Part shown: in pieces, positions 3,385-9,639 of the stretch
How the letters are laid out: every line of letters begins with the position of its first letter
How positions within the stretch are numbered: the first letter of the stretch is position 1
Assembly: GCA_938005545.1 (NCBI GenBank)
Contig: CALKXV010000002.1
Span: 1 to 64,000, forward strand
DNA length: 64,000 bases
DNA from: an uncultured Paracoccaceae bacterium
GTDB lineage: Bacteria > Pseudomonadota > Alphaproteobacteria > Rhodobacterales > Rhodobacteraceae
Direction of reading: 5' to 3'
The notes under the pieces: model-generated
The model's database searches: none
Seen by the model: only the letters and a program-made list of their open reading frames with translations
What the model was told of the DNA's origin: nothing
Position numbers and translations under genes: made by a program

Positions 3385-4290
3385 ATGTTTACTGTCGCTG
3401 CTTTTTATAAATTCACACGGTTTTCCGACCCCGAAGCGCTTCGCGCGCCGCTTGTCGACTTGGCCCAAAGCGAAGGCGTAAAGGGTACGCTTTTGCTTGC
3501 AGAAGAAGGCGTCAACGGGACAATGGCCGGGCCGCGAGCGGGCATTGATGCGGTGCTTGCACATATTCGCGCCTTACCTGGATGTGCCGATCTGGATTGG
3601 AAGGAAAGTCAGGCGACCGACATGCCGTTTCTTCGACTGAAGGTTCGGATCAAGCGCGAGATCGTCACGATGCGTCAGCCAAACGTCGATCCAATTGCGG
3701 GCGTGGGCACCTATGTGCAACCTGAGGATTGGAATGCCTTGATCGCTCGCGACGATGTGGCCGTCATTGATACGCGCAACGATTATGAGGTTGGTATCGG
3801 GACGTTCGACGGTGCCATTGACCCGAAGACCGATAGTTTTGGTGAGTTTCCCGCATGGTGGGCTGAAAACAAGCACCGTTATGAAGGTAAGAAAATCGCT
3901 ATGTTCTGCACCGGCGGCATTCGCTGTGAAAAGGCGACGAACTATCTGATCGGAGAGGGCGAGGAGGACGTCTTTCACTTGAAAGGCGGCATCTTGAAAT
4001 ATCTGGAAGAGGTGCCCGCAGATCGAAGTCTTTGGCAAGGCGAATGCTTTGTCTTTGATAAGCGGGTTTCGGTGGGCCACGGCTTGGTCGAAGGGTCGTA
4101 CAAACTGTGCCACGCGTGCCGCCGACCGCTTTCAGACGAGGACAAAACCCACGCTGTCTATGAACCCGGTGTGTCCTGTCATCAATGTATAAACCAATTT
4201 GATGATACCGACCGTGACAGGTTTCGCCAGCGTCAGCGTCAGATCGAATTGGCGCGTGCGCGCGGCGAAGTTCACATCGGAGATCGCTGA
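3385..4290 (+). CDS. trhO: rhodanese-family tRNA uridine(34) hydroxylase TrhO
   Basis: TrhO (formerly YceA) catalyses oxygen-dependent hydroxylation of U34 in tRNA, the first step toward (methoxy)carbonylmethoxy-uridine. The 301-aa protein has the family layout: an N-terminal ferredoxin-like domain (residues about 1-90), a rhodanese domain (about 110-210) with the active-site loop FCTGGIRCEK containing Cys175, and a C-terminal zinc-binding part with paired cysteines (LCHACRRP and SCHQC). The ATG at 3385 is preceded by AAAGGG. It is divergent from pncA and followed after about 60 bp by the DUF4178 cluster on the same strand, with no clear terminator between. Confidence 0.92.
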   Translation: MFTVAAFYKFTRFSDPEALRAPLVDLAQSEGVKGTLLLAEEGVNGTMAGPRAGIDAVLAHIRALPGCADLDWKESQATDMPFLRLKVRIKREIVTMRQPNVDPIAGVGTYVQPEDWNALIARDDVAVIDTRNDYEVGIGTFDGAIDPKTDSFGEFPAWWAENKHRYEGKKIAMFCTGGIRCEKATNYLIGEGEEDVFHLKGGILKYLEEVPADRSLWQGECFVFDKRVSVGHGLVEGSYKLCHACRRPLSDEDKTHAVYEPGVSCHQCINQFDDTDRDRFRQRQRQIELARARGEVHIGDR

Positions 4291-4350
4291 ACACGGGTTG
4301 CGCCGCTGCGGTCCAAAAGGCATCTTGTGCTTAGGCCAAGAGCAGAGTTG

Positions 4351-4962
4351 ATGACCCCGATTGAGCGACCGAATTGCGGGACCTGTGGCGCGGCACTACC
4401 GGGGCGGCTGGCTCAGGCACGCATGATCACCTGTGAATTCTGCGGCACCTCATCTGTATTGCGTGATAAGGTCTTTGAGATCGCGGGTTCGGGCGGCGAG
4501 ATGTTGGATGCCCCTTCGCTGATCCAATTGGGCCACTCGGTGATGGTCAGATCGTTGAATTTGATGCCCACGGGGCACGCACGGTTCAGCTATGGCCGGG
4601 GCTGGTGGGATGAATTCTGGTGTATCGATGGGCAAGGCGAGGGTCATTGGCTGAGCGTTGACGAAGGCAATTATGCGCTGGAGCGTGATCTTCACCGCCA
4701 CAACTGGCCCAAAGATTTCCGTGCCCGGTTTGGAGCGACGGCCCAAATAATGACCGAAATCTATAAGGTAACCGAAGCCGAAACCGCAAGCTGTCTGGCG
4801 GTTCGGGGCGAGTTTCCAGAAGAGTTGGAACTAGGCGAAGCGCATCTCTACTTCGATTTGAGCGCCAAAGACAGCGCGATGGCCACATACGAAAAGTGGG
4901 ATGGTGGCGAAGCTTGGTCTATCGGTCATTGGATCGATCCTTGGGACGTCAAAGCGTCATGA
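4351..4962 (+). CDS. zinc-ribbon DUF4178 domain protein (first copy)
   Basis: Protein of 203 aa with an N-terminal zinc ribbon (CGTC at residues 9-12 and CEFC at 28-31) followed by a DUF4178 domain rich in aromatic and glycine residues, including YGRGWWDEFWCIDGQGEGHW. DUF4178 has no established biochemical function. There is no signal peptide or membrane segment, so a cytoplasmic location is likely. The open frame begins at a GTG at 4327, but the ATG at 4351 starts directly before the ribbon and is preferred. Its stop overlaps the ATG of the next gene by four bases, so the two are probably translationally coupled. It heads a five-gene cassette ending in a spermidine-synthase-like gene. Confidence 0.75.
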   Translation: MTPIERPNCGTCGAALPGRLAQARMITCEFCGTSSVLRDKVFEIAGSGGEMLDAPSLIQLGHSVMVRSLNLMPTGHARFSYGRGWWDEFWCIDGQGEGHWLSVDEGNYALERDLHRHNWPKDFRARFGATAQIMTEIYKVTEAETASCLAVRGEFPEELELGEAHLYFDLSAKDSAMATYEKWDGGEAWSIGHWIDPWDVKAS

Positions 4963-6236
4963 AGGCGCCCCAAGATCAGACCCACGCCTTCAATTGCACC
5001 CAATGTGGGGCTGGCTTGGATATATTGGGCGGCGGGCGCGTCAAAACCCATGTTTGTCCCTATTGTAGGTCCGAGTTGGACGCGCAAGACAACTATAAAA
5101 TTATCCGGCAATTCCGCGACATGAAGCGCCCTGAAACCCCGTTTGATCTGGGAATGACAGGTCAGGTTTGGGGTGTGGATTTCACGATCATCGGCACCAT
5201 GGCCTGGGCCGAATACTATGGCGGAAAACGCTGGGATTGGGTGGATCATCAAGTGTATTCGCACACCCATGGCTATGGTTGGCTCAGCGTCGAGAATGGC
5301 CACGTGAGCTATTCCCGCAAAACCCGCGATGTACCGTCGCCAACCTATATTTCCGAAAGTGTCATCGAAAACAGCGAAGCCCGCCCCAGTGTCCGGTTTC
5401 AGAACGAAACATTTCGCTATTACGGTTCCGGTAAAGCCAGCCCTACCTTTATCGAAGGTGAATTCAACTTTCGTCCAAGCATGGATGACAAACTGCGTTA
5501 CGTCGATCTGATGGGCGGTGACCGTATGCTCAGTATCATCGACAGCGGAAAAGAGCGTGAGTACGAAGTGACAGAGTTGCCCGATCAGCCGTCTTTGCTG
5601 GACAGTTTCGGCGTTTCGAAAGATCGTCGACCGCGAGCGCGTGGCGTGCATCCTTTGGACGCGATAGACCGTTCGCCCTTACAGCTGTTCATCCGCAATT
5701 TGGCGTTGGCGGGCGCAGCTTTGGCCGTAATCGTCGGAATTGGCGTGGCCTTCAAAGGAGACGAAATTGCCGAAAGTGGTCGAACCGGCACTAATTCCGA
5801 AATCAGGCTGCCATTCGCTGTCACCAATGAAACCGGGCTGACCCAGATCACTATTTCCGCGAATGCAAACAACAGTTGGGCATGGTTCGAGGCTGAACTC
5901 ACCGATGCTGATGACGAACCTGTCGCAGCCTTTGAACGCGGCGTTGAATACTATACCGGAAGCGACTGGAAAGAAGGTTCGCGGCGGGTCAGCACGCAAG
6001 TCAAGCTCCTGCCCGGCAGCTATACGGTTTATGTCTCAATGGTTGAGGCTAAGGTTGATTGGCCGAATGGACGCTTGGCATCGAACATGGAGGCCCGCGT
6101 GCGCCAAGGTGTGGCAAACCCGGATTGGCTTTGGGGTGCCGCCGCGATTTTGGGGCTGATCGGATTCGTGTTTATGGGACAACGCTACCTGCGTAGTGCC
6201 CGGCGTTGGTCAGGCAGCGATTGGAGCGACGACTGA
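4959..6236 (+). CDS. zinc-ribbon DUF4178 protein with membrane anchor (second copy)
   Basis: Protein of 425 aa, paralogous in its front half to the gene before it. A zinc ribbon (CTQC at 13-16, CPYC at 33-36) leads a DUF4178 domain to about residue 220. A transmembrane helix follows at about 246-265, then a predicted beta-rich domain of about 130 residues with many aromatic residues, then a second helix near 395-412 and a short charged tail. This topology places the beta domain outside the membrane and the ribbon/DUF4178 part in the cytoplasm (inference). The start is the ATG in the ATGA overlap at 4959; a longer frame from 4896 only shadows the previous gene. The function is unknown. Confidence 0.75.
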   Translation: MKAPQDQTHAFNCTQCGAGLDILGGGRVKTHVCPYCRSELDAQDNYKIIRQFRDMKRPETPFDLGMTGQVWGVDFTIIGTMAWAEYYGGKRWDWVDHQVYSHTHGYGWLSVENGHVSYSRKTRDVPSPTYISESVIENSEARPSVRFQNETFRYYGSGKASPTFIEGEFNFRPSMDDKLRYVDLMGGDRMLSIIDSGKEREYEVTELPDQPSLLDSFGVSKDRRPRARGVHPLDAIDRSPLQLFIRNLALAGAALAVIVGIGVAFKGDEIAESGRTGTNSEIRLPFAVTNETGLTQITISANANNSWAWFEAELTDADDEPVAAFERGVEYYTGSDWKEGSRRVSTQVKLLPGSYTVYVSMVEAKVDWPNGRLASNMEARVRQGVANPDWLWGAAAILGLIGFVFMGQRYLRSARRWSGSDWSDD

Positions 6237-6397
6237 TGGTGGTGCGTGTTGTTCTTGTCGTTTTGGTTCTGGGCCTGATCGGGGCCGCGACAGTCATGTC
6301 GATCGCAGGCGTCTGGGGGGATTCCAGCGCCGTTATTTCCACCCGCAATGGGTCGCCCGGTGGCGGCTATGGCATCGGCGGACGAGGCGTCAAATAA
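6236..6397 (+). CDS. small single-span membrane protein
   Basis: A 53-aa product starting at an ATG that shares one base with the preceding TGA stop. Residues 3-25 are a valine/leucine-rich transmembrane helix, followed by a short polar segment and a glycine-rich tail ending GGGYGIGGRGVK. No family is recognised. The one-base stop/start overlap upstream and the 10-base gap to the DUF350 gene argue that it is real and made as part of the cassette. It could be a small subunit of a membrane complex with the neighbouring proteins; that is inference only. Confidence 0.6.
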   Translation: MVVRVVLVVLVLGLIGAATVMSIAGVWGDSSAVISTRNGSPGGGYGIGGRGVK

Positions 6398-6407
6398 GGA
6401 GAGAACA

Positions 6408-6626
6408 ATGTTTGCAGAAGTTATTTTGGCCGAGGTGATCGCCACGGTGTTCTATGTTTTCTTGGGGCTGGTTCTGTTGGGTCTCAGTTGGAAGGCCATC
6501 GAATGGCTAACGCCGTTTTCGTTGCGCAAGGAAATTGAAGACGACCAGAACATCGCCATTGCGGTGCTGATCGGTGCGCTGTTCATTTCGATTTCTCTGT
6601 TGATCGGAGCGGTGATCCTGTCGTGA
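6408..6626 (+). CDS. DUF350 (YjfL-like) membrane protein
   Basis: A 72-aa protein with two transmembrane helices (about 8-31 and 49-71) joined by a conserved polar loop, LTPFSLRKEIEDDQNIAIA, typical of half-length DUF350/UPF0719 proteins. E. coli YjfL is in the same family and is encoded with a PspA paralogue (YjfJ). The function is unknown, although membrane-stress and polyamine-linked neighbourhoods are known for the family. AAGGAGAG precedes the ATG at 6408. The stop overlaps the GTG start of the spermidine-synthase-like gene (GTGA), so the two products are probably made in fixed proportion. Confidence 0.8.
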   Translation: MFAEVILAEVIATVFYVFLGLVLLGLSWKAIEWLTPFSLRKEIEDDQNIAIAVLIGALFISISLLIGAVILS

Positions 6627-8164
6627 ACGACGCCCCCCGTCTGAAGGACGGCCAAGCGCTTTGGCTGTTGGCGGCGACCTTTACGGTGGCCGTGGCGGGG
6701 TTGGTGTATGAGTTGATCGCGGGCGCGGTGTCGTCCTATTTGCTGGGCGATAGTGTCACACAGTTTTCGCTGGTGATCGGGGTGTTCATGACCTCGATGG
6801 GATTGGGCGCATGGGCGTCGCGCTATGTGACACGGGCCGAACGCGGGTTCACGCTAAGCCAGATCATGCTGGGGATTGTCGGCGGGTTTTCTGCGCCGAT
6901 GCTGTTTTTGGCCTATGGATATCTGGATGGATTACAGATCATCCTGTTCGCCATTGTCATCGCAATTGGCGCATTATCGGGCTTGGAAATCCCGCTGATC
7001 ACCCGCATCCTGACGGAACGCGGGGCCATGACCCACACATTGTCGAGCGTTCTGACTGCGGATTATGCCGGGGCCCTGGTGGCCGCAGTCGCCTTTCCGT
7101 TGCTGGTGGTGCCCCAGCTTGGATTGATGGCTGCCAGTCTGGTCTTTGGGCTTTTGAACCTTGTGGTCGCAGGCGTCAGCGTTTGGATGTTCCGCGATCA
7201 GATCGGTTGGGGGTTACGTGCGGCTTGGGGGTTCGGGTTGATCGCTTGTGTGGCCGGGTTGATCTGGGCAGATCGATTGGTGTCATTGACCGATGCGGCT
7301 TTCTTTGACGACGATGTCGTGTTCAGCGAAGAGACACCCTATCAGCGTATTGTCGTCACCCGTTGGAAAGACCGGTACCGGCTGTTTCTGAACGGGTCGA
7401 TCCAGTTCGATACGCTGGATGAATACCGGTATCACGAAGCCTTGGTGCATCCTGCCATGAGCCGCCTATCCCGCCGTAAGGATGTGTTGATCCTTGGCGG
7501 CGGTGACGGAATGGGATTGCGCGAGGTGCTGCGCTGGCCCGAGGTTGAGCGGGTCACGGTGGTTGATCTTGATCCGCGTGTTGTTGGGTTGTTCCGCGAC
7601 AATGCCGAACTTGCCGATTTGAACAGCAACGCTTTCGCAGACACCCGCGTCACCGTGAAAAACGAAGATGCCTGGACGTTCATCCGTGATGACCAAGCGG
7701 TCTATGACCTGATCGTTCTGGATCTGCCCGACCCAAGGGATTTCTCAGTTTCGAAACTGTACAGCCGCGAATTTTACGCGCCCCTTGTCGAACGAATGGC
7801 GGCGAACGGGGCCATCGTCGCGCAAGCCGGATCGCCCTTGTTTGCGCGCGATGCCTATTGGTCGGTGGTCCGCACTATGTCGGAAACCCGCAATCCGTTT
7901 TCCGTTTCCGGCCCGTTGAACGTTGCGCCGTATCACACCTATGTGCCCAGTTTTGGAGATTGGGGTTTTGTGCTTGTCAGTGCCACTCCATTGCCATCGG
8001 TCGCCGAATTGCCGCCTGATTTGCAGTATTTTTCGCGCGATCTTTGGGACATCATGACGACGTTCCCCGATGACATGAGCCCAACGGATGCGGAAGCAAA
8101 TACGATCCTCTCGCATCCTTTGGTGCGCTATTACGAAAAGGGCTGGGCTGAGTGGATGAACTGA
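6623..8164 (+). CDS. membrane-anchored spermidine-synthase-like aminopropyltransferase
   Basis: A 513-aa protein with about seven or eight transmembrane helices (residues 12-225) fused to a spermidine-synthase Rossmann domain. The decarboxylated-SAM site is visible as LILGGGDGMGLREVLRW near residues 290-306, followed by VVDLDPRV and LDLPDP near 365. The N-terminal part resembles the MFS-like membrane module of large bacterial SpeE homologues. Soluble relatives transfer aminopropyl groups to putrescine; the real substrate of the membrane-fused type is not established. No speD or ornithine decarboxylase gene is in the window. The GTG at 6623 overlaps the DUF350 stop. It ends the cassette and converges on yqgE. 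Confidence 0.85.
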   Translation: MNDAPRLKDGQALWLLAATFTVAVAGLVYELIAGAVSSYLLGDSVTQFSLVIGVFMTSMGLGAWASRYVTRAERGFTLSQIMLGIVGGFSAPMLFLAYGYLDGLQIILFAIVIAIGALSGLEIPLITRILTERGAMTHTLSSVLTADYAGALVAAVAFPLLVVPQLGLMAASLVFGLLNLVVAGVSVWMFRDQIGWGLRAAWGFGLIACVAGLIWADRLVSLTDAAFFDDDVVFSEETPYQRIVVTRWKDRYRLFLNGSIQFDTLDEYRYHEALVHPAMSRLSRRKDVLILGGGDGMGLREVLRWPEVERVTVVDLDPRVVGLFRDNAELADLNSNAFADTRVTVKNEDAWTFIRDDQAVYDLIVLDLPDPRDFSVSKLYSREFYAPLVERMAANGAIVAQAGSPLFARDAYWSVVRTMSETRNPFSVSGPLNVAPYHTYVPSFGDWGFVLVSATPLPSVAELPPDLQYFSRDLWDIMTTFPDDMSPTDAEANTILSHPLVRYYEKGWAEWMN

Positions 8165-8182
8165 CCATCCGGCTTTTGGAAA

Positions 8183-8755
8183 CTAGGCGTGACCGGCCTC
8201 GCTGGACAACATTCGAGAATCGACACCCATGGATTCCAGTGCTGCGGTCCATTTGTCGGCGTCTTCCGTGCCAAACACGATATTGGCCGGTGCATCGCAT
8301 GTGAGCCATCCATTCGACAAAATTTCGGATTCCAACTGCCCCGGACCCCAGCCGGAATAGCCCAATGCCAAAAGCGCGGATGATGGCCCTTCGCCGCGCG
8401 CGAGTTCTTCCAAGACATCCAAAGTGGCTGTCATGCCGAATCCGTCCGACACATTCAGCGTTGAATTTTCGGATTTGTAATCGTCAGAATGTAACACAAA
8501 GCCACGACCGTGTTCGACGGGGCCCCCAAGGTGAACGCGAATATCACGCTGAATGGGTCCTGCATTGATCTCAAGTTGTTCAAGTAGAGCAGAAAATTCA
8601 AGATCTGGTGCAGGTCTGTTGATGATCAACCCCAAAGCCCCGTCATCCGAGTGCGCACACATAAAAATAACGGCTTTCTCGAAGCGCGGATCACCCATTC
8701 CGGGCATTGCGATCAGAAGTTTGCCGTCAAGCTGGGGCGCGCTTTCATCGATCAT
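8183..8755 (-). CDS. YqgE/AlgH family protein
   Basis: A 190-aa member of the conserved UPF0301 (YqgE/AlgH) family, which has no settled function. Hallmarks are LDGKLLIAMPGMGDPRFEKA at the N-terminus, FMCAHSDDGALGLIINRP, and the HLGGPVEHGRGFVLHS and GYSGWGPGQLESE segments. An in-frame TTG six codons upstream (8773) would lengthen it; the ATG at 8755 matches the usual family start. It is convergent with the spermidine-synthase-like gene and divergent from the DsbD-domain gene. In many proteobacteria the family neighbours ruvX, but not here. Confidence 0.9.
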   Translation of the reverse strand: MIDESAPQLDGKLLIAMPGMGDPRFEKAVIFMCAHSDDGALGLIINRPAPDLEFSALLEQLEINAGPIQRDIRVHLGGPVEHGRGFVLHSDDYKSENSTLNVSDGFGMTATLDVLEELARGEGPSSALLALGYSGWGPGQLESEILSNGWLTCDAPANIVFGTEDADKWTAALESMGVDSRMLSSEAGHA

Positions 8756-8868
8756 AAGGCAACCATGACCCAAGCCAGAGTGACCATCAAGGGCCGAGAT
8801 ACATCGGTCACAACCATTGACTGGAACGTGATTTTAACTTGTTAGTCCGAATGCGGTATTGTGGCGGA

Positions 8869-9639
8869 ATGATTAGATCAACCATTACTGCGCTTTTGTG
8901 CCTTGTCACCCCCGCATTGTCTTCCGACATCCCTGCTGAATTGGCTCAGGCAAAATTTATGCCGGGCTGGCGGGATGGCGGCACGCATGTGGCCGGGTTG
9001 ACGATCAAGTTGGCGCCGGGTTGGAAAACCTACTGGCGCTCGCCGGGCGATTCCGGCATTCCGCCGCGGTTCAACTGGTCTGGCTCATCAAATATTTCGG
9101 CTGTGCAGGTGCAGTTTCCGGTTCCGCAAATCTATGACCAACACGGAATGCGTAGCATTGGGTACAAAGACACTGTGACCTTCCCGCTTTTAATCACGAC
9201 CCGCGATGGAAGCCAGCCCGTTTCGCTTCAAGGCGAAGTTAGCATTGGCGTCTGCGAAGAAGTTTGCATTCCGGTCACCCTTAGGGTGGCAACAAATCTT
9301 CCAGCAGGTGGATCGCATGACCGATATCTGGTTGCACTTATGGACGACAAACCCGAGCGCGGTGGTCGTTTGACCTGTGAGATAACCCCGATTGCCGATG
9401 GTCTGCGGATGACGGCTGTGGCCTCGGTTCCAAAGCTCAAGGGCGAGGAAATCGCCATCATTGAAACCGGCAATGCCGAAGTCTGGGTATCATCCCCTGT
9501 TGTTGAACGTCGCGGTGGCGAATTGCGTGCGGAAGTTGAAATGGTGGCGCCCTCTGCCAAGCCATTTGCCTTATCCCGATCCGAAGTTCGCATGACGGTA
9601 ATGGCAGGCGGTCGTGCAATCGAAATGGTCGGTTGCTGA
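8869..9639 (+). CDS. secreted DsbD-domain (alpha-like) protein
   Basis: A 256-aa exported protein: residues 1-20 form a signal peptide (MIRSTITALLCLVTPALSS) and the rest is a DsbD N-terminal-like immunoglobulin fold. A cysteine pair, VCEEVC (Cys129 and Cys133), matches the redox-active pair of the DsbD alpha domain. No membrane or thioredoxin-like gamma domain follows, so it is a stand-alone periplasmic module that would need an electron donor such as a CcdA/DsbD protein encoded elsewhere (inference). The ATG at 8869 is preferred over an upstream TTG at 8839 because it begins the signal peptide and has GGCGG close upstream. Confidence 0.82.
   Translation: MIRSTITALLCLVTPALSSDIPAELAQAKFMPGWRDGGTHVAGLTIKLAPGWKTYWRSPGDSGIPPRFNWSGSSNISAVQVQFPVPQIYDQHGMRSIGYKDTVTFPLLITTRDGSQPVSLQGEVSIGVCEEVCIPVTLRVATNLPAGGSHDRYLVALMDDKPERGGRLTCEITPIADGLRMTAVASVPKLKGEEIAIIETGNAEVWVSSPVVERRGGELRAEVEMVAPSAKPFALSRSEVRMTVMAGGRAIEMVGC

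Follow-up and report, generated by a model that had tools for sequence, protein, structure and literature searches.

The window analysed here is a stretch of 64,000 nucleotides from an uncultured Paracoccaceae bacterium (assembly GCA_938005545.1, contig CALKXV010000002.1, positions 1 to 64,000 of the forward strand). On its plus strand, at positions 4351–8164, lie five open reading frames (ORFs), G1 to G5, which were found where a sequence-only reading of the window had placed them (Table 1). They encode two DUF4178 proteins, a micro-protein, a DUF350 protein and an aminopropyltransferase fused to a membrane domain, hereafter mSpeE. The subject of this report is the operon, which belongs to marine bacteria, and above all the lysine with which the micro-protein ends, a candidate target of mSpeE. 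G1 and G2 overlap by 4 bases, G2 and G3 by 1, and G4 and G5 by 4, and a 10-base gap separates G3 from G4; the close packing read from the sequence therefore stands, with the correction that there are four junctions, not five.

Table 1. Features of the operon, in window coordinates (TM, transmembrane helix; aa, amino acids).
Feature	Position	Strand	Description	Evidence
G1	4351..4962	+	zinc ribbon (C9, C12, C28, C31) and DUF4178, 203 aa	PF13785, E 2e-15; alignment
G2	4959..6236	+	zinc ribbon and DUF4178, TM ~240–264, beta sandwich ~268–385, TM ~389–416, 425 aa	
G3	6236..6397	+	micro-protein, 53 aa, single hydrophobic helix, Gly-rich tail, C-terminal Val-Lys; proposed substrate	
AAA codon of the G3 C-terminal Lys	6392..6394	+	followed by TAA	
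G4	6408..6626	+	half-length DUF350 membrane protein, 72 aa	PF03994, E 8e-12
G5 (mSpeE)	6623..8164	+	GTG start, 513 aa; membrane helices ~9–214, aminopropyltransferase domain ~230–513	

Conservation and composition of the operon

In the order Rhodobacterales, an mSpeE orthologue was defined as a protein at least 50% identical to G5 over nearly its entire length, and the genomes holding one are called carriers. Of 149 Rhodobacterales genomes, 35 gave a match to G5, which was often a soluble SpeE protein or a fragment, and 19, the host's own genome included, have an orthologue. In all 18 other carriers, G1, G2, DUF350 and SpeE follow in the same order, with a small ORF in the gap between G2 and DUF350. 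In the ORFs as called, the 4-base overlap of G1 and G2 is found in 17 of the 18, and that of DUF350 and SpeE in 13. A separate scan with a G2 profile, from which the best 80 of 111 relatives were taken (their titles are alphaproteobacterial), gave the complete set of G1, G2, DUF350 and SpeE in 79 of the 80 loci, the incomplete one (L081) being cut at a contig edge. Judged by stop codons, the gene order is identical across the 79; four loci (L073, which is from Silicimonas algicola DSM 103371, L085, L144 and L145) list in a different order because the mechanically called ORFs start too early. The five genes are real and conserved, and they form a single unit, as the sequence-only reading had proposed: far from being rarely adjacent elsewhere, they are kept together in both samples, which is more than chance clustering would give. 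One copy of the operon (L040, also L082) has long spacers, called at 82, 319 and 256 bases, in contrast to the 4-base G1-G2 overlap of 17 others, and in one metagenome assembly (L080, 2306–3979) mSpeE is broken into two ORFs.

The assignment of G1 to DUF4178 is direct, by Pfam, and no membrane helix was seen in it. G2 of the window has no DUF4178 match in Pfam at E ≤ 1; 16 of 19 G2 homologues match the family at E ≤ 0.1 (best 1e-18), and a profile comparison of G1 with G2 gave 97% probability. The four zinc-ribbon cysteines are invariant in all 19 rows of the G1 alignment and likewise in the 19 rows of the G2 alignment. The description of two zinc-ribbon DUF4178 proteins is thus supported, for G2 through its relatives. 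In the G2 model (pLDDT 94.7), two transmembrane helices flank a beta sandwich, in line with the anchored protein with a beta domain that had been predicted; structure comparison indicates that this domain is PPC-like (best Z 9.8, 2.6 Å over 98 residues). No clear PDB relative of the DUF4178 part was among the 50 listed Foldseek rows, whose TM-scores, normalised to the query length, do not exceed 0.18, and a second structure comparison of G2 mainly spans the beta sandwich; neither result bears on the novelty of the DUF4178 part. G2 ends (window 6200–6236) in an acidic tail with an invariant Asp-Trp, somewhat like the EDWGE terminus of LysW; the LysW zinc ribbon is weakly matched by 3 of 19 G2 members. 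G4 lies above the DUF350 gathering cut-off (PF03994, 45.8 bits against 26) and, with a 19-row alignment made, covers only profile positions 3–65 of 133, so that the half-length DUF350 of the sequence-only reading was borne out.

Upstream of the operon is what we take to be a rhodanese-like gene (window 3385–4290, plus strand), and downstream, convergent to the operon, presumably a YqgE/UPF0301-like gene (8183–8773, minus strand). A sigma-70-like promoter scan of 4000–8900 returned 0 sites, with 2.6 expected, and the window has no Rfam match.

The lysine tail and its counterparts

In each locus the micro-protein was picked from the gap between G2 and DUF350 by hydropathy only, without regard to its last residue. 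In all 79 checkable loci it ends in Val-Lys (50 loci) or Ile-Lys (29 loci). None of the 33 other ORFs in the same gaps has a final Lys, and the background in the 80 loci is 22 of 958 ORFs of at least 150 amino acids. The micro-proteins are diverse, 76 of the 79 sequences being distinct; the last two residues are near-fixed and those preceding them vary, while all 79 hold S[IVLT]R. The terminal Lys is encoded by AAA in 68 loci and by AAG in 11. Between G3 and the micro-protein of locus L072 there are 16 synonymous and 4 non-synonymous codon differences, which, together with the presence of the gene in every checkable locus, rules out a spurious micro-ORF. G3 itself is the small helix protein that the sequence-only reading had described. 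The charges flanking the helix point to no clear topology: the N-flank carries the greater positive charge in 45 of the 79 micro-proteins, and in 29 the two flanks are equal. Braun's lipoprotein, which is exported, lipid-anchored and cross-linked to peptidoglycan, has a C-terminal Lys; G3 has the Lys, but it has a hydrophobic helix and no Cys.

Lysine-ended partners were also found far from the host. A SpeE-profile search (E ≤ 1e-40) detected mSpeE-like genes in 31 of 299 genomes sampled across the phylum, of which 28 do not belong to the host's family, and in 23 of 321 Gammaproteobacteria, 20 of these new. The distant set is made of 47 of these 48 genomes, a contig-end fragment (G467) being left out. 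In 45 of the 47, as judged by eye with the pattern already in mind, a protein ending in Lys is encoded near mSpeE or beside DUF350, mostly with a Gly/Ser/Arg-rich tail. The partners are of several kinds: micro-proteins (e.g., L190, L192, L209), lipoproteins (e.g., L200, L206) and DUF4178 fusions (e.g., L184, L188). In eight of the distant genomes the Lys-tailed gene is away from mSpeE, and a DUF350 search located it beside DUF350. The two genomes where it was not found are G723, in which the locus is at a contig end and DUF350 gave no match, and G623, whose SpeE-like protein has 292 amino acids. A blind filter was also applied, requiring an ORF of at least 40 amino acids, a final Lys and 35% Gly/Ser in the preceding 16 residues. 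Of 51 mSpeE loci it retained 37, and of 19 control loci 3; counted by ORF, the figures are 47 of 4886 and 3 of 2184. A less strict Lys-tail filter, applied to the surroundings of 12 soluble SpeE loci, gave two matches (L029 and L063).

Operons of a second type help to separate the tail from DUF350. Three such loci in Rhodobacterales (L050, L051 and L065) also hold a Lys-tailed partner, and those of G077, G689, G567 and G433 have no DUF350 match and retain the Lys tail, which indicates that the tail goes with mSpeE. Among the lipoprotein partners, all 14 rows of the alignment look like lipoproteins (10 by pattern, 4 by eye). Their profile matched proteins in 14 of 321 genomes, all 14 ending in Lys; 13 of the genomes have mSpeE and one (G614) does not. 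This link is partly circular, as the profile was built in part from nine of these genomes; of the five independent ones, four have mSpeE. Fisher tests take account neither of this overlap nor of common descent.

Some of these loci show further arrangements. In L051 (2635–3927, oriented), a Rhomboid-GNAT fusion, identified by Pfam, precedes the Lys-tailed gene, and in L211 (5915–7571, oriented) separate rhomboid-like and GNAT-like genes, recognised by eye, do so; these genes could possibly process or cap the tail. In L190 (8932–10937, oriented), an FAD/NAD-binding oxidoreductase and speD lie downstream of mSpeE on the same strand, and in L187 and L189 the cluster divergent from mSpeE is composed of DUF350, one more gene, DUF4178, a Lys-tailed micro-ORF and speD.

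The E. coli yjfIJKLMC and ygiBC sets offer a comparison, as both have a protein with a Gly/Ser-rich tail adjoining a polyamine enzyme, and the yjf set also has DUF350. There the enzymes, YjfC and YgiC, are named peptide--spermidine ligase in RefSeq, and the DUF1190 partners YjfM and YgiB end in GG, whereas here the enzyme is mSpeE and the tail ends in Lys; profile searches found no ATP-grasp ligase among the five window proteins. A DUF1190 search of 274 genomes gave five further proteins, four ending in GG and one (L262) in Ala, so that the seven together show 6 GG, 1 Ala and 0 Lys. The following gene resembles, by eye, the same ligase in four of the five, and is cut off in L264. Because GG occurs with the ligase and Lys with mSpeE, the tail's last residue appears to match the type of enzyme: a terminal carboxyl would suit the ligase, and an amine side chain the transferase.

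mSpeE, its probable orientation and its proposed donor

G5 scores above the curated cut-off of NF002956 (PRK03612, polyamine aminopropyltransferase; 608 bits against 472) and below that of the TIGR00417 speE equivalog (spermidine synthase; 124 bits against 249.55), and it matches PF01564 at E 2e-34. Its model (pLDDT 93.2) superposes on a solved SpeE with Z 34.6 and 2.7 Å over 278 residues, a comparison by which the membrane part is scarcely covered. mSpeE thus shares with the soluble aminopropyltransferases the fold and most active-site residues, and it alone has the membrane domain. Thirteen of the 16 site positions checked are invariant in 63 of 63 relatives (Q261, D266, E267, Y270, H271, D295, D317, D349, D367, D370, Q401, S404 and W447). 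We take D295, in the GGGDG motif, to be the acid linked to decarboxylated S-adenosylmethionine (dcSAM) and D370 to be the acceptor-side Asp, and we likewise assume a role for W447. A report on a fungal enzyme also gives the acid of GxG(D/E)G as the dcSAM-linked residue (PMC10349129).

In the model, the helix at 140–189 is unbroken; it was counted as two crossings, which makes seven in total, instead of the eight or so of the sequence-only reading. Seven is also the count in the published description of such SpeE proteins (PMC11237479). The mean number of Lys plus Arg is 2.1–2.8 in loops 2-3, 4-5 and 6-7 and 0.06–0.30 in loops 1-2, 3-4 and 5-6; it is 1.3 at the N-terminus, and 1.4, with 3.5 Asp plus Glu, in the stretch past the last helix. 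With seven crossings the SpeE domain would therefore be outside, and in this model-based topology the catalytic domain seems to face outwards. Acidic residues sit within the membrane helices, E122 and D147 in 63 of 63 relatives and E30 in 61; our guess is that the membrane domain may carry a cation such as dcSAM.

Regarding the donor, speD is present in 34 of the 149 genomes of the order, among them 19 of the 19 carriers and 15 of the 130 others, and in 26 of the 80 G2-profile loci it lies directly downstream of mSpeE in convergent orientation. The sequence-only reading had found neither pspA nor speD, which is correct for the window; in the genome, one speD match (contig C16) and one pspA match (contig C13) are present, and the absence of speD is merely local. 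The idea that mSpeE works without dcSAM for want of speD is accordingly wrong for this genome. In the distant set, SpeD was detected in 40 of the 47 genomes. NspC, counted at 379 bits or more and nearly full length, is found in 57 genomes of the order, 27 of them above the curated cut-off. SpeD and NspC are almost mutually exclusive, occurring together in only 3 of the 149.

Proposed aminopropylation of a protein end and its alternatives

On these patterns of sequence, G3 is probably the substrate of mSpeE, and we put at just under an even chance the broader reading, the one we favour, in which mSpeE aminopropylates the C-terminal Lys of its partner, so that the operon would encode a protein-modifying aminopropyltransferase. 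SpeD would make dcSAM, and mSpeE would transfer the aminopropyl group from it to the side-chain amine of the G3 terminal Lys; with its (CH2)4-NH2 arm, this residue is similar to putrescine, which normally serves as acceptor. The inner membrane's outer face would be the site of the reaction, since the loop charges place the catalytic domain there and the lipoprotein counterparts are expected to have their tails there as well. The roles of G1, of G2 with its external beta sandwich and of the half DUF350 would be to sense the complex or hold it. As to purpose, our guess is that an envelope protein would acquire a different charge or different contacts through the modification, perhaps when the envelope is stressed. 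A more complete form of this proposal, which we hold tentatively and at well short of even chances, is that an outward-facing mSpeE, which would receive its dcSAM by way of the membrane domain, adds aminopropyl groups to the final Lys of anchored tails that can stand in for one another, and is the counterpart of the peptide-spermidine ligases with their GG tails. The sequence-only reading had suggested a machine that modifies a lipid, a peptide or a polyamine at the membrane; modification at the membrane is probable, and among the three targets the evidence favours the peptide.

Several observations weigh against this proposal. Three site positions are variable (E272 in 48 of 63 relatives, P442 in 62 and S443 in 59). 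The count of seven crossings depends on reading helix 140–189 as two, and the seventh helix has low hydrophobicity in part of the family (down to 0.17); an even count would put the catalytic domain inside. A site outside would in turn require dcSAM outside. With PF02675 and TIGR03331, SpeD was not found in G305, G205, G185, G355, G424, G567 and G312, which carry mSpeE and the Lys tail; the completeness of six of these seven genomes is 99% or more. Neither a soluble SpeE-like match nor a full-length NspC was found in 15 of the 19 carriers (one of the 15, G072, has a second mSpeE), which fits a supply of spermidine by SpeD and mSpeE. The tally made by eye and the partly circular lipoprotein link, both described above, belong here too.

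That most carriers have neither of these two other enzymes counts for an alternative, in which mSpeE would be a plain membrane-tethered synthase of spermidine or another polyamine, SpeD would come from a gene at a different place in the genome, and the small partner would serve only in assembly or regulation. The NCBIfam name of the family, polyamine aminopropyltransferase, suits this, as do the invariance of D370 and W447 in their presumed roles, the near-exclusion of SpeD and full-length NspC, and the host's own genome, which has SpeD and mSpeE with no second SpeE-like match and no NspC match. Nevertheless, two carriers (G016 and G097) also hold a soluble SpeE and two (G145 and G058) a full-length NspC, the catalytic domain seems to face outwards, and the fixed Lys end is left unexplained, so that we consider a plain synthase unlikely. 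The Lys could also have to do with mSpeE in another way, as a pseudosubstrate that regulates the enzyme from the acceptor site and is released by the DUF4178/zinc-ribbon sensors. Its resemblance to putrescine would allow this, as would the joint production of tail, anchor and enzyme from tightly packed genes; an amine in the site of an active aminopropyltransferase should, however, be a substrate, and the GG tails of the ligase variants presumably resemble substrates, not plugs, which makes a regulatory tail improbable.

Anchoring of the partner to peptidoglycan through the Lys side chain, as in Braun's lipoprotein, with mSpeE acting on something else, would agree with the many lipoprotein-like partners and their flexible Lys-ended tails. 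The lipoprotein, however, occurs in just 1 of 298 genomes without an mSpeE match, the DUF1190 counterparts end in GG, and the operons showed no evident L,D-transpeptidase, though no search was aimed at one; we regard such an anchor as decidedly improbable. Finally, mSpeE might use S-adenosylmethionine (SAM) itself, and not dcSAM, to methylate or aminocarboxypropylate the tail. The genomes without SpeD, 7 of the 47 distant carriers, would then be accounted for, and there is a precedent in the fungal N-terminal histidine methyltransferase (NHMT), a SpeE-like enzyme with seven transmembrane helices that methylates the N-terminal His of secreted proteins (PMC10349129). The two share the combination of a membrane domain with a SpeE-like domain and a target at the end of a secreted protein; the fungal enzyme, whose seven-helix sequence is called unique to filamentous fungi, nonetheless lacks the GxG(D/E)G acid, whereas mSpeE retains D295 in all relatives (PMC10349129). 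As speD also accompanies mSpeE in every carrier of the order, the use of SAM is very improbable.

Part of this system has been described. A comparative study of 2024 presents an operon with SpeE-7TM, DUF350, DUF4178, the Ctha_1186 lipoprotein and a dyad of CesT/Tir and PspA, and mentions the aminopropylation of other substrates (PMC11237479). The operon of the window shares SpeE-7TM, DUF350 and DUF4178 with it, and differs in having neither PspA nor CesT/Tir among its five proteins, a 53-amino-acid micro-protein in place of the lipoprotein, a half-length DUF350, and an extra DUF4178 protein with transmembrane helices and a beta domain (PMC11237479). The suggestion of an undescribed system is therefore too broad for the SpeE-7TM/DUF350/DUF4178 association; it holds, as far as the passages of that study on such operons go, for the C-terminal Lys, the micro-protein and the PspA-free layout (PMC11237479). 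Among the listed results of a literature search of openly available papers there was no recognisable report of the Lys tail or of protein aminopropylation by SpeE, though an earlier publication may exist.

These results name a likely protein substrate for a family annotated, as "spermidine synthase", among the small-molecule enzymes, and they open the connection between polyamine enzymes, DUF350 and envelope systems of the PspA type to a direct test. The rule that a Lys tail goes with mSpeE and a GG tail with the ligase can be checked in any genome. If the proposal is true, aminopropyl-lysine at a protein end would join the known modifications, and it would suggest why SpeE-like enzymes and ligases replace one another beside DUF350.

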